From the NCBI GenBank assembly GCA_027487435.1, contig JAIYDP010000272.1, positions 1 to 64,000 on the forward strand: DNA of 64,000 nucleotides. The letters are read 5' to 3'. Positions 6,888 to 31,211 of the stretch are shown in pieces. Position numbers and translations under genes: made by a program. The notes below the pieces were generated by a model that had not been told where the DNA came from, did no database searches, and was given only the letters and a program-made list of their open reading frames with translations. How positions within the stretch are numbered: position 1 is the first letter of the stretch; each line of letters starts with the position of its first letter. Source of the stretch: Verrucomicrobiaceae bacterium. Lineage in GTDB: Bacteria; Verrucomicrobiota; Verrucomicrobiia; Verrucomicrobiales; Akkermansiaceae.

Positions 6888-9876
6888 ATGGAGGCCTGCG
6901 AAAACGCAGGAAAACTATTGGCATCCTCTTCCATAACAGCGAAATACCACAAAGTGAAGGGGATGTTTTCGTAAGCTGTGCGTCCGTTCTGGTGACCATG
7001 CAGAGGATGGAGCGTTAGGGTGCATGAGGAGTGCCGGATCTCTACCCTCTTGGATTCTATTCGCGCTGAAGGGGGGCGCGTTGATGACGTTGGCGATGCG
7101 GCGCTTGACGTGTGTTACTTTCCCAAAGGCAATCAAGTGGAAGTTACTCCTCTGTATATCCGAATGTGCATATGGCTGAATTCAAGAATTCCTGTCTCTG
7201 AAAGAGCGCTGTTCAGGCCAATTCCATCATCTGAAGGAGTACCTGGATTGGCTGGGAAGGTTTCTTCTCTCCATTTTCTCGCTGATTCTTAGCACATGAG
7301 CCTTGAAGGATTTCGTGGCTTCGAGTACAAGTATTACGCAGAAGCAATTCGCGTGGCAACCCTGCACAACCCATCCGAGATCGACGTTGCAGATTTTCGC
7401 CTTGTCCCGAGCAGGCCACCCCTTGATTTCCAAACGCCTCCTCCTTCAAGTGCTGCTCAAGTCGTCGATGAAAATTGGCTCGAAAATTGTTTGAGGGAGT
7501 GGAAATTTCAACCTTTTGTCGAAAGTTCGCAAGCCTTGACGCAAAATGACGACGAACGTGAGCTCGAAATCTTTCGAAGGAAAAAAACTCGTTTGTTGAG
7601 AAAACCCGAAGGTTTAGCAGTGCGCAAAGTGCGTGAGGTGTCGTCCGAGAGTGAATTGTCGGAGCAAAGTCAGAATGATGGTGACGCCATCCCGAAGGTG
7701 ATGTCGGTGTTCATGATGAGCGGCATTTCCAAGTTTGTGATGCGCTTTTCATGTTGAGACCCCAGGCCCTTGCAGTCGCAGTTTCAAAAAGAGCTCCTTT
7801 CCTTGGGGGCCTCCGTCGTCGAAGGGCACCGCTTCTCCCCTCATGCCGACCTCCTCATTGTCGGAGAGCATCGCCGGACGGAGAAGCTTTGCTGCGCTCT
7901 CGCCATGGGGATTTGGATTGTCCGTCCTGAATACGTCAGGGCTTGTGTGGCATCCGGTACGATTGTGTCCCCACAGCCTTTTGAGTGGTCCTCTATATCT
8001 GCCGCATCGCAACTCTCGGGTAGCCCGTGGGAGGTCCGGCCGGAAGAGTGGCGGCGGAAAGCCGGGCAGCGTCATTTTAAAGGGAAATGGTCTGTTGCGA
8101 TTGGGAGGACTGAGATTGCGAGCCTGATTGTATCGATATTGCAATCGGGGGGGGGGACGCTGATTGATGGGCACCATCGCCTTATTTGTGATGAGGGGGA
8201 CTTTGACGTGCTTTCTGTTGCGAAACGTTCCAACCTGAAGTTAGCTCTTCGCTATCAGTACGTCATCGATTATTTCAGTGCAAGTGGTTTCAGAGACAGC
8301 AAATATCCTCTCGCATATGTCCTTCATCGAGCCCATCAAACACTCCAGAAGAAGAGGGCGAGCGGGCGCCGAAAGGAGCAAACGGTGCCTGTGCAAATTC
8401 TTGAGGAGAGATCGAGCGCTGGTGCCTGTTTTTGTGGGGGGGTCTCATCGTCGGACATCGAAGGAGAGCTACAAGATACACCCTTGGGTCGGTTGCATGT
8501 CGAATGCGCCCGTTGGGCAAGCAGAGGCTTTCCAGATGCGCTGTTGTCACTTCCTGCAAATTTGATTGACTCACAAGGACGGGTGATTCGGTGCTGGCAC
8601 TTCGGAAACTTGTGAGAGGCGCTTTTTGCTTAATGACGGACAGAGATGCTTTGTTTGCAATGGATGGGGTGCGTCACTGGCGTGCGCTCGTTGTGGAAGG
8701 GGAAAGGCGCATCTCCGATGTGTTCTGTCTGTTGTTCAAGGCCACGACTGACCCTCCAGTTTTGCAGGGTGGCAAATGAGCTTGGCGACTTTTTCAGCCG
8801 CGTGTCCTGCTCACGGCGATGGAAACTCCGATCAAAGCTCAGTTTGTTGCGCTTTGTGTGGCCGATCGCAGTCGTGCCCTCTCGCGGGAGAGCTGTCTGT
8901 TGTGTTGGCGATGAAGTCGACGTACGCGCATCAATTCTGCGTGGAGTGGAGCCCAGAGACTTTCGTGGAGCACAACGGAACGCGGAAGTGACATCCGGTG
9001 GTCTTGGGCTGAAGTTTTAGTGTCTGGAAGAATGTTGACAAAGCGATTCGACGGGGGGAGAAGACGGTTAGAAGGGGGGGGGTACTGGTGACTGTTCAGA
9101 AGTGCGCTGGCTGCAGAAGCTGCGGTGCTACAGTGGGCTGCTTCTCGAAGCAATGCAAGAGGAGCTATCATTATCACTGTGCCCGCATGTAATTTTAATA
9201 CCTCGAGGGGAGTCACATCACAGGCTGGAGGGCACAGTCTTTTCGGACGAGTTCGAATTTTTTTGCCCCTCGCATGCGAAGGAGGGCGCTGCTCCTGGAT
9301 TTGTTGATTCCATGACTCAAATGGCTCGAACAGCTTACTGGCCTGACCGAGAGGTCGATGACGAAGAGGAGTGATCGTGGGGGGGCGTGTTTGACCTCAA
9401 AGAGAAAACAGCCTGTTGGATTTTCAATGGGTTGTTCCCAGCGTGTGCTTCAGACTGCGTGGTCGAATTTTTAGTTTAATGGACTACGTTCTCGTGCGTC
9501 CTCCTCCCTCTTATGACGTCCTGTTCGTCGCACAAATACAGCGCCTGTACGAAGGGGTGGGGGGGCCGAAAGCAAAGCTCCTGTGGCTCGAGAGGTCTCA
9601 AATTGTGAAAGTATGCGCGCTCTATTTCGCGGCTGATCTCGAAGGGAAAGGTTGAGCAACTGGAAACAAGCCCTTGCGAAGTGTTTTCAACGCAACTTTA
9701 TTCCTCTGAGGTGCTTGCAACCTTCCTGTCATTCTTGACTCATCTAGAGTGTTGGCTGCATTATAGAAAGGCATGACGTGTTACTCAGGATCCCAGATTT
9801 CTCTCAGGTTGGGACAACAACTTTATATTGTGTGCGCTCCGTCGAAGATGTAACGAATAATATATTGGAAAATTGA
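6888..9876 (+). CDS. Four-BRCT, double extended-PHD, BAH-domain nuclear protein
   Basis: A likely chromatin or DNA-damage reader. After an intron beginning GTAAGC in codon 28, BRCT1 covers about 6965-7255 (ending ...YIRMCIWLNSRI). BRCT2 follows (HMSLEGFRGFEYKY ... VVDENWLENCLREW, 7295-7495). BRCT3 is at about 7690-7970 (KELLSLGASVVEG ... MGIWIVRPEYVRAC) and BRCT4 at 8075-8280 (FKGKWSVAIGRTE). A first extended PHD has ACFCGG, RLHVECARW and then CFVCNGWGASLACARC (8420-8740). A second has CCALCGRS, YAHQFCVEWSPE, CRSCGATVGCFSKQC and YHYHCAR (8840-9190), closing with FCPSHA near 9270. A BAH domain follows (FSLMDYVLVRP, VAQIQRLYEG, CEVFSTQLYSSE, SVGCIIERHDV), assembled across a 32-nt intron near 9372 and a 34-nt intron at 9611-9644. 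Stop is TGA 9874-9876. Plant BRCA1/BARD1 combine ePHD and BRCT but in another order and with RING; no RING is visible here. Confidence 0.7.
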
Positions 9877-12822: not shown

Positions 12823-14295
12823 TCAATCAGAGCATGAACAAAAAAGGGAACCAAAGGAAGGGGCACGAACGGGCGCCAACATTCGCGGGGCGTAAGGCAC
12901 AAGCGCCGACAATCGAACGGACGGCTGTGAGAGCAAATCAGATTGCGATGCCGGGACTCCGTCGGAGGAGAATCCTGCGGCGGAGTTGCCAAATCCTGCA
13001 AGAGCATCTGAATCACGTCCATCAAAACGGTGAGCCCTCCATTCATCGCCTTCGCGAGATCTGGGCGATGGAGTGGTGAAATTATGTCGTGTGGGAAATT
13101 GGGATGCAGCCTGCGGCGAAAAAGTCATGTTGTGGCCTCTTGAATCAAGTTGCTCTGCACTGAGGGCCATTTCAGTGGCGTGCGGCCTCTCCAATGATGC
13201 AACGAAACTGTTGCGAAATGCAGGCCACTCAGTTTGCAATCGAGAGGGGGCGGAAGTACTCATTAGCTCGAAGCTTGACCCGTCGCGGTTGCGAAACCCT
13301 TGAAAGCTCGAAAATGGTTGGGTGTTGGAAAATTGGCCAAAATCGGGCAGCTGGACCGCCTGAGCTGCTGGTGAGAGCTCCATTGGGACTTGAGCTGAGA
13401 CGTTGTGAGGAGAAAATACATGGGCTTGTCTTCTTCCTTGGGAGTTGGGAAAGCCAGGGACTGCTGCGCGAAAACGGGGGCGCGGTTGAAGTCGATCAGA
13501 CCTCTCAGGGACATATGGAGGGGGGCCTTTGCTCTTCCTCACCGTCGGCATGCCCTCCGAGTTCGGCTCCTCTTCTGACTCTGAATCAGACGCCCTAAAA
13601 GTCTTTGCCTTGGAAGCACGACGCGGCTGCTGGCGAAACTTTGGAATTTCAAGAATCTGCGAGCTTGGCGCGCCTCGGCCGTCACGAGCCGTCGGCCTCG
13701 CATGCTTTTGAAAGGGCTGCGTCACGAAGTCTATGTCATGAGACAACAACGAATTGTTTCATCTACTTGATGGCTCGATGGAGGCCGTGTCGGATGGGAG
13801 TTCGCCTGAAGGAGGCAGCCCAGACTGGGATGACATAAACCCTGGTAGGCTCACGCGCCTGACGTCACTCGGAACAACCCCGGACATCAAGCTACCTCCA
13901 GACGTTTCTCCAATATGGCCTCTGTCAGAAGCATTCTGTGCCAATGATGGATGCGGTCCCTCTTCAGCGGTCAAAGAGTCGGACCTCAGCGCTTGACGAT
14001 CCGGTTGCGCATTGGGACTCCGATCAAGCTCTGTTGAGTTTTCTCCCCTCCAAGAGCTTGCAAACGAAGGTACCTCTGCAGGCCTGTACAAGCATTCACG
14101 GTCCTTCCTAAGGCACTGCACGCATGGGTTCACCCCGTCGCACCGAATTTTTAGTTTCCGGCAGGGTTCGCATGCACGAGCCACGCGAACGCGTTTGGGA
14201 GCCCCACTGTCTAGAGGTCTATCTTCGGATTCTCCATCTGCCGAAGCAACATCGTTTTCAAGTGCGGCCAGCCCCCGTTGAAGAGAGTCCGCCAT
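12823..14295 (-). CDS. Fungal-type Zn(II)2Cys6 transcription factor
   Basis: The N-terminal part carries a perfect binuclear zinc cluster: CEPCRKLKIRCDGVNPCVQC followed by six residues and a last Cys, i.e. C-x2-C-x6-C-x5-C-x2-C-x6-C, with the usual basic residues after the second Cys. A basic RVRVAR segment precedes it. I chose ATG at 14295 (MADSLQRGLAALEN). The rest, about 400 residues, is Ser/Pro/Gln-rich and looks disordered, as in activation domains; the fungal middle-homology domain was not recognised. A 36-nt intron at 13731-13766 joins the two exons (...ASIEPS | NFVTQPFQK...). Stop is at 12823. It is convergent with the TSET-like gene. Zn2Cys6 proteins bind CGG-type half sites in fungi; outside fungi they are rare. 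Confidence 0.8.
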
Positions 14296-14904
14296 GCTAG
14301 GGCCTCGAAAGGTCGCCGTTTTGTGGTGTAGGAGCACCCTCCCTCTGATAGGTCCCTCAACGTCAACTGCGGATTGCACGGGGGGAGTGGACTGTGCATG
14401 AATATTTATTATTTGAAAGAGGGTGCAAACCAATTTGTACTCAAACATGTGTAAAGGAATGCATTGCAAAATGAATAAAGTAGAATCGGGCACAAGAGAA
14501 CAGCAGCTCTCGGGAATACAATTGAAGGGGCCAGCGCACCACTTGTAAGGTGAAACTAATGCTTGAAAAAATGGCGCTCAATTTGAGCAAAGTTCGCCCT
14601 TCCGAAAAGAACATTCGGCCATTGCGAAATGCATCTTGACGTACGTTATTCATTTAGCGAAAGGTTTGATTTCAATTTGAGAGCCGTGTGAATCAATAAA
14701 GGGTCTACCCTCGGCAAGATGTACATGGGCTCAAGCAGCGCAGTCATTATGAAGCTTCTTGGGAAGCTTTCTGCAACAGTTCATCGCAAAAGCGTTTGAT
14801 TTCTTGGTTCTCATGTCCAAAATGGTACGACTTCTCTCTTTTTTTTTCTTCATTTTTTCCCCCCATTAAAAATGTGGATATTTGCTGTTATTTTTCAAAT
14901 TGGG
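14296..14904. other. Largest gene-poor gap, between Zn2Cys6 factor and polymerase
   Basis: About 600 bases between two divergent genes, therefore the likely promoter region of both. It contains a poly-T run near 14838-14848 and a C-rich patch near 14860. Minus-strand sequence near 14750-14830 reads YHFGHENQEIKRFCDELLQK, which looks slightly protein-like, but no start or upstream exon was found. No RNA gene or repeat recognised. Confidence 0.35.
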
Positions 14905-17900
14905 ATGGATGATGAAGAACTTGTTAACCAAACGCAGGGAGGTGTAGTGTGGAAGAATTCGAATGCTCCTATCTCAGATGACTTGATTAAGAAGATAGAA
15001 AGACAAATTGATCAGGTTCTACCAAAATGTTTGTTCTGACAGGTTCCAGGCCACGAATTCACGTTCGCCTTGCGATGTTACGACTCTCTCTCGTGCTGTC
15101 ACCATTCCTCAATTCTTGCCTTCTAAAAGAACCCCGTCTCTAAGACCATCTACAAGCCCTGAGAACCAGAAGCGAACAAAGTTTTTGGAAATTGTTGATT
15201 GTGTTCAAAACTTATTCAAGACTGATTCCACTGAACTTGCGTGTCCGAAACTCCTTGCTCAAACTGTTTCTTCTGCTCAAGATCCAGCTCCGGTGGCCTT
15301 GCAGCGGAAAAATTGCAACGGGTCTCGTATTTCTCCAAACTCTTTACGTGGTCGCCCCAGCGAATGCGTGTTTCAGCAGATCGACGTTGAAGTCGCAGAT
15401 GAAGGAAATCATCAAGCTTGTCGTTTCTATGGAGTCGATACGGCTGGTACAAGTGTTTGTTTGAGGCTTCGTGGCTTTCTCCCTTCGATATCATTTCGAG
15501 TTCCTCCTGGCTGGGATTCCATTCAAGTCCTTACTTTCATTGAAGCAGTTGATGCAGCTCTTCGGAAAGCGACGGGGAGTGGTGTGGTACATCACAGCAC
15601 TAGTCGCCGCCGAAATATACTTGGGGCCCATTGTGTTCCTGCCGAGCATGTCAAGCTCATGTTTTCTTCGACCATCGCGTACACCACCATGGTGTCTCAA
15701 GTGCAGCATGGGCCGAAGATCAAGTCTCTTCCAGAAGAATTCTCTCGCATTGAGTTCTTTGATGGTCTTCTCGATCCTGCCATGCAGATGTGTGTGGAGC
15801 GGGGGGTTGAAGGAGCGTCATGGATTTCAGTTCCTGTTGGAAGCTACTGTGATGTGCCTCTCAAGGATCGAATCAGTTCCTGCAGCCGAGAGGTGTCTGC
15901 GTCTGTTGATCATGTGCAGCAGCTTCCGGAAGACAATGCCCTCACTGACACTGTTGCGCCGATGCTGGTGACGATTCTTGCTGCAGTGTATTGCTCAACT
16001 CGGCAAGGAGATGTATTGGAGGTCTCAAGCCTACTTGCTATTACCACTGTGACATTTCGCGTTACAGAGGAAGCTCGGACAAGGACAAACGTATTCGTCA
16101 TCGGTGAGACGAAATGCCCTGATAATGTCAACATGGTGAGTTGCAGCTCAGAGAGAGACCTGGTTCGACGATGGAAAGACTTCTTCATCAAGCTAGATCC
16201 CGATGTTGTCGTTACGTTTGACTCCGAAACGCTTGGAGCGATCGCACAGCGTGTTGCAGTGACGACGGAGTCATCTGGGGATCCCTCCCTCGGTCGTATT
16301 TGTGGTCATCCATGTTCAACAAAGAAGAAATCAATCACTACAAGAGCGTTTGGCACGCAGACGTCGCTGCTTGTAAGCATGCCAGGTCGAGTCCACATCG
16401 TCCTGCAGCATCTCATCGCAAGGGAGCACAAGTTAACGTCGTACTCTCTTCAGCACGTCACAGCACAAGTTCTGGAAACACTCCGGCCGGTCCTGTCGAA
16501 TTCTGACGTCGCGCATTTATTGTCGTCACACGAAGGACGACCCGGTGCAGTCGACTACTTGATACGCGCGACCGCCGACATTTGCGCTATCGCTCAAAAG
16601 CTGGAAGTTCTTCCCCAACTTGTGGAGATGGCTCGAGTTACGGGCGCTCCTCTGTCTGCTCTTTTGAATCAAGGGCAGCAAGTGAAAGTACTCAGCCGCA
16701 TCGCCAGAGCGGCCCTGGCGAGAGGGTTCTCTCTTCCAATTCAAAGAAAGGCATTTGACGATGACGACAGCAGAAAGAGCGAGTACAGCGGCGGCGCAGT
16801 CATTGACGCATCCAAGGGCGCCTACTTTGACCCCACTGTTGTGCTTGACTTCGCCTCCCTCTATCCGTCAATAATGATCGCTCACAACATCAGCTACGAA
16901 ACCCTTGTTACCGGAGACGCTCCATCTGGAGTAGAATTGTTTGAAGTCGACATTTCAAGTACTGAAGCTCCATCAAAGGTGTCTTTCTTAAAGTCTGGCG
17001 AGACAGCTTTGCTCCCATCGATTTTGGAGGACCTCCTGGCAGCTCGTCGGCGAGCAAAAGAAAAAATGAAGAACAGTGCTGGATTTGAAAAAAGCCTCCT
17101 GAATAGCCGCCAATTGGCCCTGAAGGTGACCTGCAACTCCTTGTATGGCTTCTGCGGCGCTGCCAATGGGTACTTGCCCTGCATTCCTATTGCTGCAGCT
17201 GTCACGGCAATTGGTCGGTCAATGATCCTCCGCACCAAGGCTTTCATTGAAGCAGAGCTGCCCCCAACTCTCGCAGCGTTTGGTCCCCGCGTTGTGTACG
17301 GTGACACAGATTCTGTCATGATTACTCTGTCCAAAGCCAAGAGTCCGAACGTTCTGAATGGCACTGCCGTTTCAACGGCCCCATTTCAAATCCCAGACGG
17401 CATCAGCTGTGCAAGGGCATTCGGCGCGGAGGTTGCTGCTGCTGCCTCCAGATTGTTTGCTCCTCCCATCCAGCTTGAGTTCGAAAAGGTGTATTCGCCC
17501 TTCCTTCTATTCTGCAAGAAAAGGTACGCTGGGCTCCTCTACGCCCCGGCGGAAAATGTGCCCCCGCGCATTGACTCTCGAGGCTTGGAGAATATACGCC
17601 GAGAGAATTGCTTACTGGCGAGGAACTTGTACAACGAGTGCCTAGAGCGCATTCTTGTTCGCGGCAGCGTTGATATGGCTGTCGATGCCGTGCACAAGGC
17701 GGTCCGCACGCTCATGCAGAACGGAGTTCCGCCGTCAGACCTCATCATGTCCAAGAGCCTCGCCAAGTCTTACAAAGCCAAGACGCCACATGCTTCTCTC
17801 GCTGCAAGAATGATGAAAAGAGATTCCGCCACGGCTCCACAGCCGGGCGATCGCGTCCTTTTTGTTGTCAAGAGCGGCTGCGGTGGAAAGAATTTGAGCG

Positions 17901-18430
17901 ATGCGGTGGAAGACCCTCTGCAACTCAGCCGTGATGGCGGTGCTGCTGACGTTGATTGGTACGTGAAGCATCAGCTCAAGGGGCCTCTCATTAAGCTCTT
18001 TGAGCCCCTTCTTCCGAACGCTGACTCGGCTCTGTTCCCCGACTCTCTTTTCTCCAACAGGGCGAGGCAGCCGAGACCTCCTACGCGAACTGGCGCCCTC
18101 TACGCTTACCTCCGTGTGGAGAAAAAATGCATTGGATGCGGAGGCATCGCGCTGAAAAAGGGTCTCTGCGGCTCTTGTGATGCGGACCGAGACGATTGCT
18201 TCTTGTTGCAAGTTGGGATGATTCAAGAATCGCAAACGGAGCTTCGGAAATGTTGGGAGAGCTGCACCCAATGTTCGAACGGGATCGTATGCCAAGCGTT
18301 ACCCCACCTAACACGGCAGGAGGATGTGCATGTGCAGTGCCGCAACTTTGAGTGCTCAAACTATCATTCCAAAATCAAGGCGCAACGAGACTTGACTTTG
18401 CGCCAGGCCGACTACGCCGAGATGCTTTGA
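14905..18430 (+). CDS. DNA polymerase delta-like catalytic subunit with degenerate exonuclease
   Basis: A family B polymerase of about 1170 residues. Palm motifs are intact: DFASLYPSIMIAHN (motif A), QLALKVTCNSLYGF (motif B) and VYGDTDSVMI (motif C), as is KKRYAGLLY. It sides with Pol delta rather than Pol zeta by MARVTGAPLS, GQQVKVLSRIA and the CysA start CIGCGG. Two C-terminal cysteine clusters are present, CIGCGG...CGSC and CTQC...CRNFEC, for zinc and Fe-S binding. The exonuclease motifs are not intact: where Pol delta has FDIEC this protein has LAAVYC; the exo II region reads TFDSETLGAIA; the exo III region reads YLIRATADI. The start is inferred from a small first exon (MDDEELVNQTQGG) joined by a 34-nt intron around 15017-15050; the main exon could also begin later. 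Stop is TGA 18428-18430. It may be a paralogue beside a normal POLD1. Confidence 0.8.
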
Positions 18431-18579
18431 CGCTGTTCTGCCGATGGTCAATATGCCCCTCACGTCATGCTTTTGAATTATGAACCAAACTTTTAAGATC
18501 AAGTGGAAAACATTTTCGTCCCTGTGTCATTTCTAACGAGTAAACATTTGGGTGTTTAAGTTTGGTCGGGTCCGCTCCA

Positions 18580-20781
18580 ATGAGTCTCTGTGCCGAAAAT
18601 GAAACTTCTTTCGCAACGGAAAGCCTTACATCAACGCCAGCACTGACTGCCCCCTTCGGCAGCGTTGAAGGCATCCGACCTGCGCCATTGCACAGCGTCG
18701 ATCCAAATTTTTTGTCAGACCGCCTCAAGTCCTACATTGACGAGGCTCTTGCGCTGCGCCGCAGCGCCATCACATCAGATGAGCGGTTGGTTGCGGCAGA
18801 GAGAGCTCTCGCTGCAGTTTCAAACTCATTCTCGGCAGCGAAGACAACCAATTCCGTTTTGGTCCGAGAACTCGCACGATGTCGCGCCGCTTTGGACAAC
18901 GAGGCCAAACTCGGGCAGAGGACTCACGCCTGGACCTCTCGAGCTGTCGCACTCTGGTCGAGAAGAGACATCGACGCCACGCATTTGATCCTACGCAAAG
19001 CGTGGGCGTGCTGGCGATGTCATCAAGGCGCCATGCCGCGTCGCAGCCTTCTTGCTTTGATGCGGCTGGAATGTCTTGTCGCTTCCATCGCCTTGGATCG
19101 CAAGCGCACCGTCGGGCTCGTCAGCTCATTTTCCAAAAAGGCGCCCGCGATGCGGAGAGCGGCTGCCGTCGTCGGGCCGTCTTTTTTCGCCTGGGAAACA
19201 ACGTCGCGCACAGCGCAGGCTCTCCGAACGGACCGCGTCGTGTCCTTTTTGAAGCTCAAAGCAACGGCACTCACTCGTCGAGCTCTAGCGGCGCTCCGCA
19301 GCTTCGGCGTCCGCAAAGCGCGTGCCCACGCCTCAGACGCCGCTGCGCTTGCCTTCGCGCGGCGGCTGAGACTGCTGCGGTCCTTTTCTCATTGCATCTT
19401 CGTTTGGAGCGCTTTCGCGTCCAGCGCTCGGTACCGCCGGCTCTGCAAGCGAAGTTGCGGGGCTGTCGCACAGCTGCGAAGAAAACTCTTCGCGAGGACT
19501 TTGGTGGGACGCTGGAGGGGGCGCTGCCGCGGGAGGGACTCGTCGGACCACGTCATCTCACAACTCGCAAGGAAGTCGGTCCTCCAAGGTTGGCGGCTCT
19601 TTGCCCGATGTGCCGTGGCGGCTGAGGTTGAAAGTGACAGCTTGGCCGCTTGCGTGGAGAAAATGATGGCAGCGAAGAGGCACAAGAAGGTCCAGACGAA
19701 AGTGTTCGGCGCGTGGAGGACATTGGGGCCAACCATTGGCAACGCGAAAGCTTTCGCCACTGCCGACAAAGCCCTGAGTGCGCTGGCGCTTGTCAAGACG
19801 GCGCGAAAGGTGTGGCGCCGATGGCAGCTTCAAATTTCTGTCGCTCGCCACGACGCAGCGGTGGTTCAATGGGCTGAAAGAGGGCGATGGGAGAGGCTGC
19901 TGGCGCAAACGACGAGGGCCGTGCGGTGGTGGCGGACGGAGGCGATTTCCAAGAGGTGGAAGGTCCAGTTGCGGAGGCGGGCTCAGGTGAGAGCTCTCAA
20001 ACAGTGGACGGCACGTGTCCTCGCATCAAAGTCGCAACAGAGGAGCGCCAACCGAAAGGCCGTCCTCTCGAAGTTGATGTCTTGCTTTTTCAAATGGCGC
20101 TTCTTCACGCGCACCCGCAACGAGCTTTCGGCGCTTGTGCACCCAATCTTCGCCAAGTTTGTCTCCGCCGCACTCATCGCAGCGCAACCCCCCCCGCCTC
20201 AGTCCCTCACACCCCAAGCCCCGCCTGCTCTCAATTTCTGCAGAGCAGGTCGCCTCTACGCCAGCGCCATTCAGCTTGTGCACAAACGCAGCCAAAGAGC
20301 GTCACATGTCATGGCCGCCCGTTTGGCGTTCACCAAGTGGCACCTTGTGCGACACAGGAGCCACTCGGCTGAGTCGCTCGTGGCGAGGAGGTCCGCAAAG
20401 CTGGCTGCGTCTGCATTCTCGACTCTCCTTGAATTCTCTCAAGTCCAGCGGGCCCAGCGTCGAGTTTTGAGCCTTTTCGTCAGGACCCCTCGGAAGTGGA
20501 AGTTGCGCCAGCGTTTCTTCCACTGGCTGGGCCTTGCGCGACATCATTGGCGCCTCAAAAGGTCTTTAAGTGTCCGCACTTACTTGTCGCTTCAAAGGGT
20601 GAAGAAGGAGCACTTCGTGGCGTGGCGACGGCAGAAAGACATTCAGTTTTGGCGCGACGTCGAGACGCTCAAAAGCCTCCGCAGGCGCGACCTGTCGAAG
20701 CGACGGCAGCACTTCAAGTCTTGGGCCGCGTTCGTTGAGTCACGACGGGGCAACTCTGATCGGCGGCCTTGGCGCCCATAA
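18580..20781 (+). CDS. Sfi1-like centrin-binding repeat protein
   Basis: A 733-residue protein starting MSLCAENETS, extremely rich in Ala, Arg and Trp. It is made of helical repeats spaced by about 25-35 residues, each with an aromatic/tryptophan core such as RKAWACWRC, FGAWRTLG, VWRRWQLQ, VRWWRTEA, FFKWRFFT, FTKWHLVR and HFVAWRRQ. This is the pattern of Sfi1, a long alpha-helix that binds centrin at spindle poles, half bridges or basal bodies. A short coiled-coil-like N-terminus precedes the repeats. The reading ends at 20781 near RRPWRP; a further 3' exon is possible because Sfi1-like text appears weakly in 20800-20960 but I could not join it cleanly. Repeat proteins of this type diverge fast, so orthology is inferred from pattern only. 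Confidence 0.65.
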   Translation: MSLCAENETSFATESLTSTPALTAPFGSVEGIRPAPLHSVDPNFLSDRLKSYIDEALALRRSAITSDERLVAAERALAAVSNSFSAAKTTNSVLVRELARCRAALDNEAKLGQRTHAWTSRAVALWSRRDIDATHLILRKAWACWRCHQGAMPRRSLLALMRLECLVASIALDRKRTVGLVSSFSKKAPAMRRAAAVVGPSFFAWETTSRTAQALRTDRVVSFLKLKATALTRRALAALRSFGVRKARAHASDAAALAFARRLRLLRSFSHCIFVWSAFASSARYRRLCKRSCGAVAQLRRKLFARTLVGRWRGRCRGRDSSDHVISQLARKSVLQGWRLFARCAVAAEVESDSLAACVEKMMAAKRHKKVQTKVFGAWRTLGPTIGNAKAFATADKALSALALVKTARKVWRRWQLQISVARHDAAVVQWAERGRWERLLAQTTRAVRWWRTEAISKRWKVQLRRRAQVRALKQWTARVLASKSQQRSANRKAVLSKLMSCFFKWRFFTRTRNELSALVHPIFAKFVSAALIAAQPPPPQSLTPQAPPALNFCRAGRLYASAIQLVHKRSQRASHVMAARLAFTKWHLVRHRSHSAESLVARRSAKLAASAFSTLLEFSQVQRAQRRVLSLFVRTPRKWKLRQRFFHWLGLARHHWRLKRSLSVRTYLSLQRVKKEHFVAWRRQKDIQFWRDVETLKSLRRRDLSKRRQHFKSWAAFVESRRGNSDRRPWRP

Positions 20782-21164: not shown

Positions 21165-24100
21165 TTATTGAGACGTTCGAGGCAGCAGGGGGATGCCAGC
21201 GTCACCCGCTTTGGGGTCCCCAAACATTGCCGCGAGGCCCTTTATCGAGCTTAAGATTCCACTCTTAGCATCCTGATGCATCTCCTTCATGCTGATGCTT
21301 GTCTGAAGCTGGAGCGTACCAGCGCCATCGCCCCCATGAGCAACAATTTGTGCTTCAATGCCTTCAAGAATCTCGTGGAACGACGGCCTCTCACTTGGGT
21401 CGCTTGCCCAGCACTTTGTCATCAAGTCCTTGTACCAAGGAGGTACGTCCGGTGGCACAACTGGTCTGCCCCCGCTAGTAACGTACTCAATGACCTTGAA
21501 CCGACCCTTTGGGATGTCTGTTGAGTCTTCGTATGGAGTCTTGCGAGTGAGGATCTCCCACATGATGATGCCAAAGCTGTACACGTCCGCTTGGCGTGTG
21601 TAGTGCCCCTCCGAGCTCAGCGCCTCGGGGGCGCACCAAAGTAAAGTCCCTGCGGTTTCAGATGCGAGCGCGCGTGCGGCGGGGGGGGACAGAGAGCTCA
21701 CCCATCATCGCCGTGAGGGTCGTCGACTCGCCACGGCTCTGCCCGAAGTCTGCGACTTTACAAAGCATGTCTTCTGCGACAAGGACGTTGAGGCTCTTCA
21801 AGTCCCTGTGCAGGAGCAGCATCTCATGCACGTGATGCATCCCTCGTGAGATATCCAGCGCAAATCGGAGGCGCATCAGCCACGGCAACGACGTCGAGTG
21901 GTCCTGCAGGATCGCAAATAGCGAACCCCTCGGCATGAACTCCATCACGACACACAGCGGCTTCTGCACGATTCCTGCGCGGTCAGAGGCGGTCGCTGCG
22001 CATCACCAATCAGCTGCACAATGTTGGGGTGGCGTAGGCCCTTGTGAACGCCAACCTCGCGGATGAATTCCGCAGCCTCGCGCTCTGTCAGGCCGTAGTA
22101 CTGCTTCACCGCGACCTTTGTCCGGCGCCATATGCACAACATCACGCGAGCAGACGCGCCAGAGGAAATGTCCCGCAAGACTTCGATATCTTCAAACTTG
22201 ATGAGCAATGACCGATCGATCAAATCGCCGACTGATGGGTCCCCACTGCTGCGGCCTAGGGACGCATAATTCTTGAGGATGTTTGAAATCAAATGCTCTC
22301 GCCGCCGGAGGTAAAGCCTTCGCGCCCACAAAAGAAGGAGGACGAGGGCGATAACGCCAATCAGGACGGCGCCAGTGATGATGCCTGCAAACGAAAATAC
22401 GACAACGGGTCCTATTTGTCCGGACAATGCGTCAACGCGGACAAGAAACACATGGGGGCCTGCTGACTGAGTGAAAAAAGAGCAAATGAGGGCTGTGGCG
22501 AGGGTCTCATTTGCTCCAGGGCAGGAAATTTGTAAATTCGGGGAAGATATGGAGAAGCCGCTGCCACGGATTGCAGTGGCTTGGCCCATGCTGTTCATGA
22601 ACTGCAGCGCAAAAGTCGTCAGCACGCCCGTGACGGGGATGAAGCCATCGATGAGGGAGATGCGGGTGAGGGTGAGGTCCAACTCAGAGAGGGCAAAGTC
22701 GATTGTCGCGGACACACAACAAGGGGACTGCGCGAGAAACTCGACGCCAACTTCGATTGGCTCCCCGTCCACAAGCGGAAAGTCCGTGTGGGAGAGAACG
22801 AACGAGACTGCCTCGCCGCGGTTTAAGACTGTCCGCCCTGTCCGCATTGTGCCGACAATTCCTTCGAACACAGCAGGGCCAGATATGGCGCTCAGATTCA
22901 GGGTGGCCGACATCGCAGAGGTGGGCCAGGGCTGGAGGCGAACGCGGGAGGATGACGGCCCACAGCTGCAGGCGGCGGCAAATAGTGAAGGAGGGGGTAG
23001 CGGGACAAGGAGAGTGGAAGAGCAGTTGGAGGACAGACTGACGGTCGTTGCAAGAGGGGGTAGGTTGATTTGTGAGGGGATGGGGCACGATATCAGCGCC
23101 GGAGTGCAAAAGGCTGATGTGTCGAACGATAGCGGCGCCATGGTGGAGAAATTGGCCATACCAAGGAAGAGACAGCCCAAGAAATATGCGGGTGATGGGG
23201 CGAAAATGAAAGTGGGCACATCAATGGTCACAGCGTGATTGGGCCCCTCAGTGTCGAATACACAGCCCTCAAAGAGGTTTGTGCGCGCACTTGTAACGAC
23301 TGCAGAGCCGCTGATTGCAGTCACGTTACGAAAGGAGACAGCGCGAAATCGAAGGGCGCTTGCTAATTGACAGAAAACAGCGCCTCCTGAGAGCGAATGG
23401 GAGTTCAAAAGCATTGAGTCAAACGCGCTGAAAGAGAGCGAAACGACGGTGACTGATCCTCCAGAGCCTCTGGGGGTAGAGTTGCTGTCGAGAGTACATC
23501 CACTTAAATCAAACGCTGCAGGGCCAGAGCCAATGGCTTGCGCGAAAATTGCTCCGCCAGTCCCTGAATCACCAACAACGGAGTTGCGGAAGAAGCTGCA
23601 TCCTCTTGCAGATGACGTCGCACCGTTGGGAACTGTGAGAGAAAGTGCACCGCCGTTAAAGGAAGCTGTATTTTCGGTGAAAGAGGAATCCTGTTCCCAT
23701 CAATAAACAAACAGATAAACAAACCAGAATTTTGAGCTCAAGAGTGCTTTCGATCGCTCCACCGGCCCCCTGTACTTCAAGAACACTATTTCTCAAAAAT
23801 CTTGAGGACGAGATCACAGATGTGCCACCTATGCCATCGAGGCTTTCCACGTACAATGCGCCACCTCCTGAAGCGGCTACGTTCCTCGAAAACGTGCAAT
23901 TGTGCACATGAAAAAATCTAATAAGAACAGCAAGAATAGCTCCACCCCTTCCTCCGTCAGTCGTGGATCGGTCTAGAGAGCTCAGTATTGCAGAGCAGTC
24001 CTCAACCACAACCCCAGTTACGTTGAGATACAAGGAAGAGAACGCAGCGATGGCCCCCCCCGACACTGCACTGCAATTCCTGAAAATAGAGTCCGACACT

Positions 24101-26134
24101 CTCACATCTCCACTTGCGCTATAGATGCATCCTCCGGATGAAGAGCAAGTGTTGTTTTCAAAATGGCAATTTTCAACGATGAGACTTCCGCCTGTTTTCG
24201 CCACGGCAGCCCCCTGAGTCGACGCAAAGTTGTTCGAAAAAGTGCCTGATTGAGTAAGCCAAACAAATACGAATAGACGCACATGAGCGCATCGCAATGG
24301 TGCTGCCAGACAAGGACAGAGTCCCGCCGAACGATTGCGGCGCAATGAGCGCTCGGTTCCAGCGGAACGCGGAGGCAGTGATCGAGACGTTGGCAGTGAG
24401 GGTCGTGAGGCAGCTTGAGGATAGGAGCGTTGCCGTGTTGTTCTCAAACGCGCAGGCAGTGATGTCGGAGACTCCGTTCTGAATAAAAAGCGCAGCCCCG
24501 ATGCTGTTGATGAACAATGTCCGCGAATAGGCTGTCGTTGAGATAAGCGCCGCAACTGCAGCGCCGTTGCCACCGCAAACGTTGCTGTCAAAAGTGCACT
24601 CGTCAATAATCACATGCGAGCTCTGGGTTACGATGGCGCCACCCCCCTGATTCGGATTGAGCGCAACATTCGACAAGAAGGACGAATTGCGAACACTCAG
24701 AAATGACTCAGCGAGGCCAAACCCGACAAAGATAGCGCCTCCGGTTGCAGCAGAGTTGTTATAGAAGAGGCAATCTGTTACGTTAACAGACCCACCCTTG
24801 AGGGTCAGCGCCGCCCCAACAAAAGCTCTATTCGACAAAAATCTGGACCCCTCGACTTGCACAATGCAACCCTCCCCCACAGAGATGGCTGAGTCGCTCC
24901 CCGAGGAGAAGCTGCAAGACGTGACGAGCGCTGCGCCACCCACGCAGTTGATGGCGTGGGAAGATGACGCGACGAAAGAGGAATTCGAGAGGAGGAGGGT
25001 TGCGCCAGCCAAGACGAAGCCGGAGGAGGACGCGGACCCCCTTGAGCTGGTGTTGTTTCGAAAAATGAGGTTTGCTGCCACCACTTGGCAATTTTGAAGG
25101 ATGATGGCGCCTACAAACGAGTCCCCAACAGCGCCGTTTAAAATTGTCAGTAAGCGCAAGGTCCATGACCCTTTAAATATAACAAATGCGCTGCCGCCCT
25201 TTTCCGCGAAGTTGTTGTAGAAAGTAGAATTAAAAACAAAACCCTGCCTCGACGCCAGCCCGAGCGCTCCTCCAGCACCAACGCCTGGGCCTCTTGCGAC
25301 GTTGTTGGTGAACGTGGACCCCAAGAGCAGAGCGACGCCGTCCTTATCGTCGTCCATAAACAGAGCCCCAGCGGTCGCGGCGTTGTTTGAAAAGGCGCAA
25401 TCCGAGACACGAGAAGATGAAGCTGCTCTGACGTAGACTGCCCCACCGTAAACAAGCGCAGAGTTGTCCAAGAAGGTCGAAGATGTGATGGATACGTCAT
25501 ATCCTGCGAGAAAAGCAGCCCCACCTCGATTTGAAGCTGAATTTGAAGAAAACGTGGAATTGGCGATGGCCATCGTTGCGAAGGAGTTGTTGAGAAACAA
25601 TGCGCCTCCATGGCCTGAAGTGGAGCACTTTGTGAAGACTGAGTTGGTGATGGAGATAGTCGAGGGTTGGGAAGAGTTCATGACGATTGCTGATGATGAA
25701 ATGTCATCAAAGTTGGCAAAGTCAATCGCCAGTGAGGACACTCTATGTATGTGGATAACGGGAGCAGAGGAGTTGAAAATGCTGACGCAATTGAGAGAAA
25801 TCGAAAGGTTTGGGGTATCTCCAGCATGGATCAGGCCGTTGAGGGCAAACAAAGAAGTGGGTGCCGCACAGTCTGAAGAAGACACCCAAACGCGTGTCAA
25901 TAAGGCCGAACGAATAGAAATCGGGGTGGAAACGTGCAAGAGATGAGACTGGGTCGTAACGTAGAGCTCATCGCACGCGTCCTGCGCAATGAACGCACGG
26001 GAGAGGCTCTGAAACGGAAATGAAGAATTTCCTGAGAAATCGTCGCTTCCTGCCGCTCCGTCGACAAAGAATGAACAGTTCAAGAGCGCGTCAGAGGCAG
26101 ACGCCAGCAGCAGGCAGGCAAAGAGGGACCTCAT
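21165..26134 (-). CDS. Receptor-like TKL protein kinase with Pmp-type beta-helix ectodomain
   Basis: A single-pass receptor kinase of about 1550 residues. The start at 26134 gives a signal peptide (MRSLFACLLLASASDA). The ectodomain is a long parallel beta-helix with repeated GGA-(I/L/V/A) and F-x-x-N units (GGALFLNN, GGAAFLAG, GGAVYV, GGAIFVG, GGAIVT, GGALYVE), as in chlamydial Pmp proteins and protist adhesins. A transmembrane helix (FAGIITGAVLIGVIALVLLL) lies near 22340-22400, followed by a basic stop-transfer. The kinase has VAVKQ (Lys), HRDLKSLNVLV (catalytic loop), ADFGQSR, TLLWCAPEA and DVYSFGIIMWEIL, typical of the TKL group and likely active. At least four introns were placed: near 24240-24280, a 34-nt one near 23695, a 32-nt one near 21985 and one of about 51 nt near 21655-21706. 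The ligand is unknown. Confidence 0.8.
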
Positions 26135-26234
26135 GTTGTCGCCAGTGTCCCCCTGACTTTGACGTTGACTAGCGGCGGGAAACGCGACACGACTGTACAT
26201 CAACTAAAAAATGCAGCACTACAGCGAAAGGGGA

Positions 26235-29749: not shown

Positions 29750-29762
29750 ACGTGTCCATGGC
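29750..29762 (+). promoter_or_regulatory. 13-nt start-codon element shared by two proteasome genes
   Basis: The bases ACGTGTCCATGGC surround the RPT4 start codon (ATG 29758-29760). The identical 13-mer surrounds the RPN9 start at 45456-45468. Other genes in the window whose starts I could place do not have it. It might be a promoter or translation-initiation element, or chance. Confidence 0.3.
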
Positions 29763-31211
29763 TTCGATTGATCCGAGGGAGAAGTCGCTGAGCGATTACA
29801 GAAGAAAGCTTTTGGAGCATAGAGAAGTTAGCTCACGTGTTGGAGCAGGTTCTTGTTCTGTTGTCGTATTTCTGAAACAGTAGCACGTGAGAAGGTGAAG
29901 ACGCTCAATTCTCAATACGACAAAACTGAAGACGACCTGAAAGCTTTGCAAAGCGTTGGCCAAATCATCGGCGAAGTTCTGCGCCAGTTGGATGAGGAAA
30001 AATGTCACATTATCTGTTGTTATTTCTCTTACTGTGTAGTTATCGTGAAGGCATCCAGTGGGCCTCGCTACGTTGTTGGCTGCAGGAGCAAAGTAGACAG
30101 GTCAAAGTTGACACCTGGAACTAGAGTTACTCTGGACATGACAACACTCACAATCATGCGAACGCTTCCTCGCGAAGTCGATCCCACTGTGTTCAATATG
30201 ACGAAGGAAAACCCAGGTAGCGTCGCATACTCTGATGTTGGCGGTCTCTCCAACGAAATTAGACAACTTCGAGAGGTTTTGATCCTTTTCCCCCCTTTGA
30301 TTAGACAGGTTGTCGAACTGCCCATCACGAATCCTGAGCTGTTTGCGAGAGTCGGTATCAAGCCTACGAAAGGTGTTTTGCTGTATGGACCACCAGGAAC
30401 AGGAAAAACATTGCTTGCAAGGGCCATTGCTTCGAATTTGGAGTCAAATTTTCTTAAAGTTGTTGCCTCTGCAATTGTTGACAAATACATTGGGGAGAGT
30501 GCCCGAGTGATTCGAGAAATGTTTAGTATTTCATTTCTTTTGCATTTCTCACTGCACAGCGTATGCAAAGGATCATGAGCCTTGTGTTATTTTTATTGAT
30601 GAGATTGATGCAATTGGCGGTCGCCGATTCTCTGAAGGAACTTCGGCTGATCGCGAGATTCAACGTACTCTCATGGAAGTAGATGATACATTTAGTAATC
30701 TGATTGAGTTAGTTGCTGAACCAGCTTGATGGCTTTGATGAATTGAAACGAGTTAAAGTCATCATGGCAACTAATAGACCCGATGTCTTGGATCCTGCCT
30801 TACTGAGACCTGGACGCCTTGACAGGAAGATCGAGATTGCTCTCCCGAATGAGCAGTCTCGATTAGAAATTCTTAAAATTCATTCGGCCCCTATCGCGAA
30901 ACATGGAGATATCGGTTTGTCGGGTTCCTGTGTGACGAAACGGCGCAGATTTTGATGCGATTGTGAAGTTGGCAGAAGGATTTAATGGGGCGGACATGCG
31001 CAACATCTGTACAGAAGCAGGTTATGACCCCTGCTGTCTCTCTTGACCTGATGAGGCATGTTTGCAATAAGAGCAGAGCGAGACTATGTCACCCAAGAAG
31101 ATTTCATGAAGGCAGTTCGGAAAGTAAGACAGCTTTGAATCGGTGTCTTGACAGCATCAGATGGCTGATCTCAAGAAGCTTGAAACAACAATTAACTATA
31201 ACCAAATCTGA
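29758..31211 (+). CDS. RPT4: 26S proteasome regulatory ATPase subunit RPT4 (PSMC6)
   Basis: An AAA+ ATPase of the 19S base ring that unfolds ubiquitylated substrates. It begins [21 protein letters not shown], then a coiled coil and an OB region ([15 protein letters not shown]). The AAA module has [30 protein letters not shown] (Walker A), [14 protein letters not shown] (Walker B) and [13 protein letters not shown] (arginine finger region). The pore-adjacent and C-terminal parts ([14 protein letters not shown]) are also present. At least six short introns are needed. The last, in AVRK | [10 protein letters not shown], gives the expected RPT4 tail ending TINYNQI with TGA at 31209-31211. The order of blocks and the PREK start favour RPT4 over the five sister subunits. 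The neighbour on the left starts only about 60 bp away on the other strand. Confidence 0.9.

Follow-up and report, generated by a model that had tools for sequence, protein, structure and literature searches.

A delta-type DNA polymerase gene with a predicted dead exonuclease on a eukaryotic contig in a bacterial genome bin

Does this locus encode a Pol delta that copies DNA without proofreading and, if so, is the gene a second copy or the only one its organism carries? Pol delta is described as essential for replication (PMC2669801), and Rev3 is reported to bear an inactive exonuclease domain (PMC6895278). No natural Pol delta paralogue with a dead exonuclease was recognised among the titles and abstract openings of the open-licence PMC papers retrieved. 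If true, a naturally occurring enzyme of the delta type whose exonuclease domain has drifted would exemplify the conversion of a replicative polymerase into an unedited one, and such an enzyme would let both the cost of proofreading and the bypass capacity of a delta active site be tested. We refer to the whole stretch of 64,000 nucleotides analysed here as the window.

The contig and the gene model

The window lies in a 115.8-kb contig (C286 of the bin) and is a eukaryotic contig, from a microbial eukaryote, that was binned by accident with a bacterial genome. The bin measures 9.39 Mb as compared with 2.9-4.4 Mb for nine genomes of the same genus, so about 5 Mb or more of it looks foreign. 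Eukaryotic genes within the window include RPT4 (proteasome ATPase; 29760-31200, + strand), which is interrupted by four or more GT-AG introns, each 32-36 nt long, along with an exportin, filamin repeats, a Zn2Cys6 domain and a tyrosine-kinase-like kinase. A pattern search of the bin for eukaryotic 18S found none. The contamination listed for the bin is only 0.61, an estimate that thus fails to register this foreign material.

The polymerase frame at 15008-18430 (+) runs for 1,140 codons without a stop, with a chance of about 4e-22 for a stop-free stretch of that length given the base composition of the frame, and is predicted to encode a full-length family B DNA polymerase of the delta type (Pfam DNA_pol_B, 353 bits; DNA_pol_B_exo1, 56.5 bits). 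The main exon was placed at 15050-18430 (+) from this mechanical ORF, the Pfam matches and the match to POLD1. A putative first exon (MDDEELVNQ...IERQIDQ; 14905-15015, +) opens with an ATG that is preceded in frame by a stop at 14797, and ends at a GT donor; removal of a putative 34-nt GT-AG intron (15016-15049, +) joins it in frame, for a predicted spliced product of 1,163 aa. Both the exon and the intron likely belong to the polymerase gene, and the intron fits the size class of four RPT4 introns on the same contig (32-36 nt).

Several other frames were observed around the gene. An ORF with a BRCT domain (7770-8615, +; best Pfam match Rtt107 BRCT) lies about 6 kb upstream, and an ORF with a fungal-type Zn2Cys6 DNA-binding domain (13759-14493, -) adjoins the gene. 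An intronless, Trp/Arg-rich frame of 739 aa at 18562-20781 (+) has zero Pfam matches and resembles SFI1-type repeats by eye. The tyrosine-kinase-like kinase is present in pieces at 21165-23414 (-), with 23656-26203 (-) beside them, and long frames near these pieces resemble repetitive beta-helix ectodomains, again by eye.

Exonuclease and polymerase domains

An N-terminal domain (FQQIDVE...; 15371-15937, +) was aligned with human and yeast Pol delta, to which its residues 139-310 are 21-22% identical, and is followed directly by the exonuclease domain at 15938-16597 (+), whose catalytic residues are lost in the alignments and whose predicted fold has several low-confidence loops. The interval 15958-16590 given in the initial annotation covers the exonuclease domain, while the gene itself is larger (the 15008-18430 frame).

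We read the exonuclease register from two alignments, one by phmmer and one by MAFFT with 19 other rows, and these agree with each other. At the exo I position (15980-15994, +), AAVYC replaces FDIEC in both alignments. The human residues FDIEC correspond to A325-A326-V327-Y328-C329, placing Ala326 at the Asp and Tyr328 at the Glu; the earlier reading of Asp and Glu as Ala and Val was therefore right about the loss and the Ala, while its Val occupies the adjacent Ile position. The exo II position (16196-16246, +; both alignments) reads DPDVVVTFDSETLGAIA and has lost the N-x3-F-D loop, with human GYNIQNFDL replaced by TFDSETLG through a two-residue deletion that makes the segment two residues shorter; Asp405 falls where the motif has Asn, and the catalytic Asp is absent. 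At exo III (16556-16570, +), both alignments pair human YCLKD with Y517-L-I-R-A521, so that YLIRA replaces Y-x3-D. The changes at exo II and exo III had both been proposed in this form and were borne out in each alignment.

A pattern scan of residues 311-530 found no intact motif elsewhere in the exonuclease domain: N-x3-F/Y-D and Y-x3-D were both absent, and the sole D-x-E was D405-S-E407 in the exo II loop, outside the exo I strand. Fourteen of the 17 other aligned rows that show exo I carry D-x-E there, the remainder being two Bathyarchaeota polymerases and the yeast Pol3 chain 7kc0 (SIS), which we take to be an engineered proofreading mutant of the normal enzyme. The exo I, II and III catalytic residues are a defining feature of POLD1, and their absence indicates that the window protein is not a standard POLD1; an exonuclease domain that appears inactive by sequence is a feature it has in common with REV3.

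All three polymerase motifs named in the initial annotation were located intact in the frame, namely motif A (DFASLYPSI; 16847-16873, +), motif B (NSLYGF; 17135-17152, +) and motif C (YGDTDS; 17297-17314, +), and a delta-type KKRYAGL motif is found at 17516-17536 (+). An insertion of about 20 residues in the palm, 3' of motif C (17330-17404, +), is evident from the alignments, is partly low-confidence in the structural model and is not found in human or yeast Pol delta. Compared with human delta, the fingers loop lacks one residue, and the lengthening seen in Pol zeta is absent. As judged from these motifs, all metal ligands of the exonuclease are lost and the polymerase motifs are kept, so DNA is probably copied without proofreading.

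Eight C-terminal cysteines, as in POLD1, are present in two modules. CysA (CIGC...LCGSC; 18128-18178, +) gave a Pfam zf-C4pol match at E 1.8e-4 and 22.2 bits, below the 28.9-bit cut-off, and CysB (CTQC...CRNFEC; 18263-18355, +) has four cysteines and a long loop, with 21 residues between the cysteine pairs as compared with 18 in Rev3 and 9 in human delta. The C-terminal 106 residues alone had no PDB match up to E = 10, so this region is not decisive between delta and zeta.

The exonuclease domain of the window protein has diverged more than its polymerase domain. Identity to human POLD1 was 47 of 217 residues (21.7%) in the exonuclease domain and 187 of 430 (43.5%) in the polymerase domain; between human and yeast Pol delta the values were 132 of 222 (59.5%) and 251 of 432 (58.1%), respectively. 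Ratios of exonuclease to polymerase-domain identity were computed on 13 of the 20 aligned rows, omitting L016, L020, L085, L135 and L143 as well as Rev3 and L073, in which the exonuclease domain is wholly or partly absent. The ratio was 0.50-0.66 for the window protein against relatives classed as exo-intact (10 pairs) and 0.65-1.17 in 45 pairs among those ten relatives themselves, a set that includes yeast 7kc0 (exo I SIS), and the two ranges touch (0.66 vs 0.65). The two Bathyarchaeota polymerases with lost exo motifs had ratios of 0.59-0.99 (20 pairs), mostly with no drop, and the drop therefore belongs to the window protein and is not an obligatory mark of exonuclease loss.

The lost exonuclease residues and the palm insertion could also be expected of a non-functional relic or an assembly artefact, as could a third-position GC of 0.547, slightly lower than the 0.573-0.677 of four neighbouring frames. 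Against this stand the length of the open frame, with its very low chance expectation, and the retention of every polymerase motif, and we rejected a relic as the main reading on these grounds, giving it hardly any weight. A frameshift was likewise rejected as the main reading, since the frame is open throughout.

Relationship to Pol delta, Pol zeta and viral polymerases

The best match in a PDB sequence search was human POLD1 at 427 bits, and four different chains of Pol delta led the list at 393-427 bits, with yeast Pol zeta at 158 bits. Polymerase-domain identity was 43.5% to human delta, 40.7% to yeast delta and 28.2% to yeast Rev3, the last being near the 31.7% measured between human delta and yeast Rev3. 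Searched alone, the exonuclease domain matched Pol delta at 4e-12 to 4e-10 and archaeal-type polymerases weakly; Pol delta chains were the sole matches below E = 1e-9, and zero Pol zeta were observed among the 37 matching sequences up to E = 10. The N-terminal domain leads directly into the exonuclease domain in the alignments, as in POLD1, and no large insertion of the Rev3 type lies between them. In Rev3 and its orthologues, a large insertion is reported to separate these two domains (PMC6895278).

An AlphaFold model was built from a 19-row alignment (mean pLDDT 73.6, pTM 0.74; last 120 residues and several exonuclease loops below pLDDT 50). The five best Foldseek matches to this model were all Pol delta (E 1e-68 to 2e-63), while the first Pol zeta was at rank 44 among the 50 matches listed (E 1.3e-46), the ranks above it in these 50 including herpesvirus, archaeal and Pol alpha chains. 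The sequence scores, the search with the exonuclease domain alone, the domain order and the predicted fold together make a delta-type polymerase with a predicted dead exonuclease and intact polymerase motifs a well supported reading. The active, non-proofreading Pol delta-type enzyme proposed at first is upheld in its delta type, its lost exonuclease residues and its intact motifs, by sequence and predicted fold.

The trees were less clear on this placement. A clade of the window protein with delta was present in the best 20-row tree (support 64/25), consistent with the delta type, and absent from the best 16-row tree (the same rows minus L075, L085, L135 and L143), with a p-AU of 0.41 when enforced. 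The two Pol deltas were the nearest tree rows to the window protein by path. Joining the window protein to yeast Rev3, the single zeta row, was not rejected at p-AU 0.081 (20 rows) and 0.065 (16 rows). A divergent REV3, in which exonuclease loss is normal, would also be consistent with the inactive exonuclease and the long CysB loop (21 residues vs 18 in Rev3). However, delta scores far exceed zeta scores in the full-length search, in the exonuclease domain alone and in the identities, motif B and KKRYAGL are of the delta type, and the large insertion described for Rev3 (PMC6895278) is missing. REV3 was rejected as the main reading for these reasons, and we consider it improbable.

The trees also bear on whether the gene was captured from, or is part of, a giant virus whose polymerase resembles delta. 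A polymerase from a viral contig, L073, is close to the window protein in the tree, the two grouping together with delta at a support of 80/75, and a clade of the window protein with L073 alone was not rejected (p-AU 0.475). Nevertheless, L073 is less similar to the window protein than Pol delta is (35.1% polymerase-domain identity) and retains both exo II and exo III, while the contig does not reach its exo I. L073 also showed no cysteine tail beyond the polymerase portion. The window gene, moreover, has both cysteine modules and sits amid intron-bearing eukaryotic genes. With neither a viral context nor a viral nearest relative found, a giant-virus origin was rejected as the main reading and appears very improbable.

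Relatives of the putative paralogue itself were not found among the rows read in our scans. A close-relative scan of viral contigs returned 4 stretches and a further scan with poor patterns 198, with 0 confirmed in either, and a third scan returned 340 relatives, of which 80 were retained. Six of these 80 (L073-L078) were read, and the six placed in the tree (L073, L075, L076, L085, L135, L143) were picked by eye. A scan of genome contigs matched 47 loci; no eukaryotic Pol delta was recognised in the 15 of these that were aligned or in L025 and L043 (tblastn). L025, whose exo I is intact, appears viral; L043, seemingly intron-split, fits an intein-bearing archaeal polymerase. Ninety-two of 387 sampled genomes of the bin's phylum had a match, the window's own included, and the other matches listed score at most 46.4 bits and appear bacterial. 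Among 57 relatives, a match was observed in the window's own genome only.

Second copy or only copy

All eukaryotes are stated to have four B-family paralogues (PMC2669801). The bin holds one eukaryotic PolB gene, that of the window, with no POLA1, POLE or REV3 found in it. The number of other eukaryotic genes suggests that the bin covers perhaps a third of the eukaryote's genome: proteasome matches were found on 5 bin contigs, one of which could be bacterial, where 14 core subunits are expected; two MCM genes were clear, accounting for half of the 12 matching rows (the remaining 6 being weak), where six to nine are expected; and one polymerase B-subunit gene, POLA2-like, was found where three are expected. 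The same-genome search for an exo-intact POLD1 called for at the outset found none in the bin, but a bin this partial would be expected to lack a normal POLD1 roughly two-thirds of the time, and not finding one therefore says little.

Branch lengths in the polymerase domain were also compared. In the 20-row tree the window branch measured 1.15 from the common fork, with the human and yeast delta branches at 0.71 and 0.72 (a stem of 0.31 plus 0.40 and 0.41), and in the 16-row tree 1.05 against 0.70 for delta, making it about 1.5-1.6 times as long as those of human and yeast delta. A piece of MCM7 from the bin (129 residues) was identical to yeast at 98 positions and to human at 96, with 103 between human and yeast. 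The source eukaryote therefore does not look generally fast-evolving, as judged from near-normal MCM7 within a set of few, short genes taken to derive from one and the same eukaryote; RPT4 (121 of 150) and PSMB2 (86 of 177) from the bin were compared by identity to spinach, with no human-yeast baseline for either. The longer branch combined with near-normal MCM7 leans weakly to a second copy, and the 43.5% identity to human delta, well below the 58.1% between human and yeast, leans to a paralogue. Our reading accordingly leans, on indirect grounds, towards a paralogue that may have been freed from the constraints on the replicative enzyme.

The gene could instead be the organism's only Pol delta, with the lagging strand copied without delta proofreading and a raised mutation rate either borne or compensated. 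The bin yielded no other family B polymerase, this one is full length and has the C-terminal cysteines of delta, and a rodent malaria parasite with a proofreading-deficient Pol delta is reported to have been maintained for more than 24 weeks (PMC5109483). On the other hand, the bin is partial, with POLA1, POLE and REV3 equally not found and only one B-subunit and two clear MCM genes, and the gene has a longer branch than human and yeast delta, in contrast to the nearly normal MCM7. We regard an only copy as possible but doubtful, and slightly more doubtful the form in which a eukaryotic lineage's only Pol delta lost proofreading, leaving the nuclear lagging strand to be made with no delta exonuclease and fidelity to Pol epsilon, mismatch repair and the selection of bases. 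Should no second copy exist, whether a natural eukaryote can dispense with delta proofreading becomes a directly testable question.

With modest confidence, we favour a non-proofreading delta-type polymerase, most likely one that serves a microbial eukaryote as a second, specialised catalytic subunit of Pol delta. Such a second subunit may work like Pol zeta, yet would be of delta descent. The delta active site would extend primers with mismatch removal impossible, and, with no idling between extension and excision, the enzyme would be committed to extension, so that synthesis would continue past lesions, mismatches or gaps. Proofreading-deficient human Pol delta is reported to bypass abasic sites far more efficiently and to continue better over UV lesions (PMC5009730). 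For an archaeal enzyme, lesion bypass is described as requiring a longer fingers loop besides exonuclease loss (PMC4150786), and bypass ability is uncertain here because the fingers loop is not lengthened. Accessory subunits of delta may be borrowed through the CysB module, as Pol zeta does; in Pol epsilon the cysteine tail is reported to bind the B-subunit (PMC2669801). A separate normal POLD1 would handle bulk replication and might correct some errors in trans. In yeast, errors of proofreading-defective Pol delta are reported to be correctable in trans by Pol delta (PMC4351087), and an unedited second copy would thus be tolerable.

Among known systems, Pol delta (POLD1/Pol3) is the best match of the window protein in sequence and structure, and the two have in common an N-terminal domain before the exonuclease, the polymerase motifs, KKRYAGL, and CysA and CysB. 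Unlike Pol delta, the window protein has lost the exonuclease residues, has a shortened exo II loop, a palm insertion and a longer CysB loop, and lies on a longer branch. It resembles Pol zeta (REV3) in having an inactive exonuclease domain, as predicted, beside a B-family polymerase and a long CysB loop, but differs from it in the 28% polymerase-domain identity, the absence of the large insertion and the delta-type motifs. The Bathyarchaeota PolB proteins L023 and L045 are likewise without the exo I, II and III residues in the MAFFT alignment, but they are archaeal and their exonuclease identity is mostly not lowered. Engineered proofreading-deficient Pol delta is, like the window protein, a delta enzyme with exonuclease activity lost (predicted in our case), but it is a laboratory allele of the replicative enzyme, whereas the window holds a natural gene with a drifted exonuclease domain.
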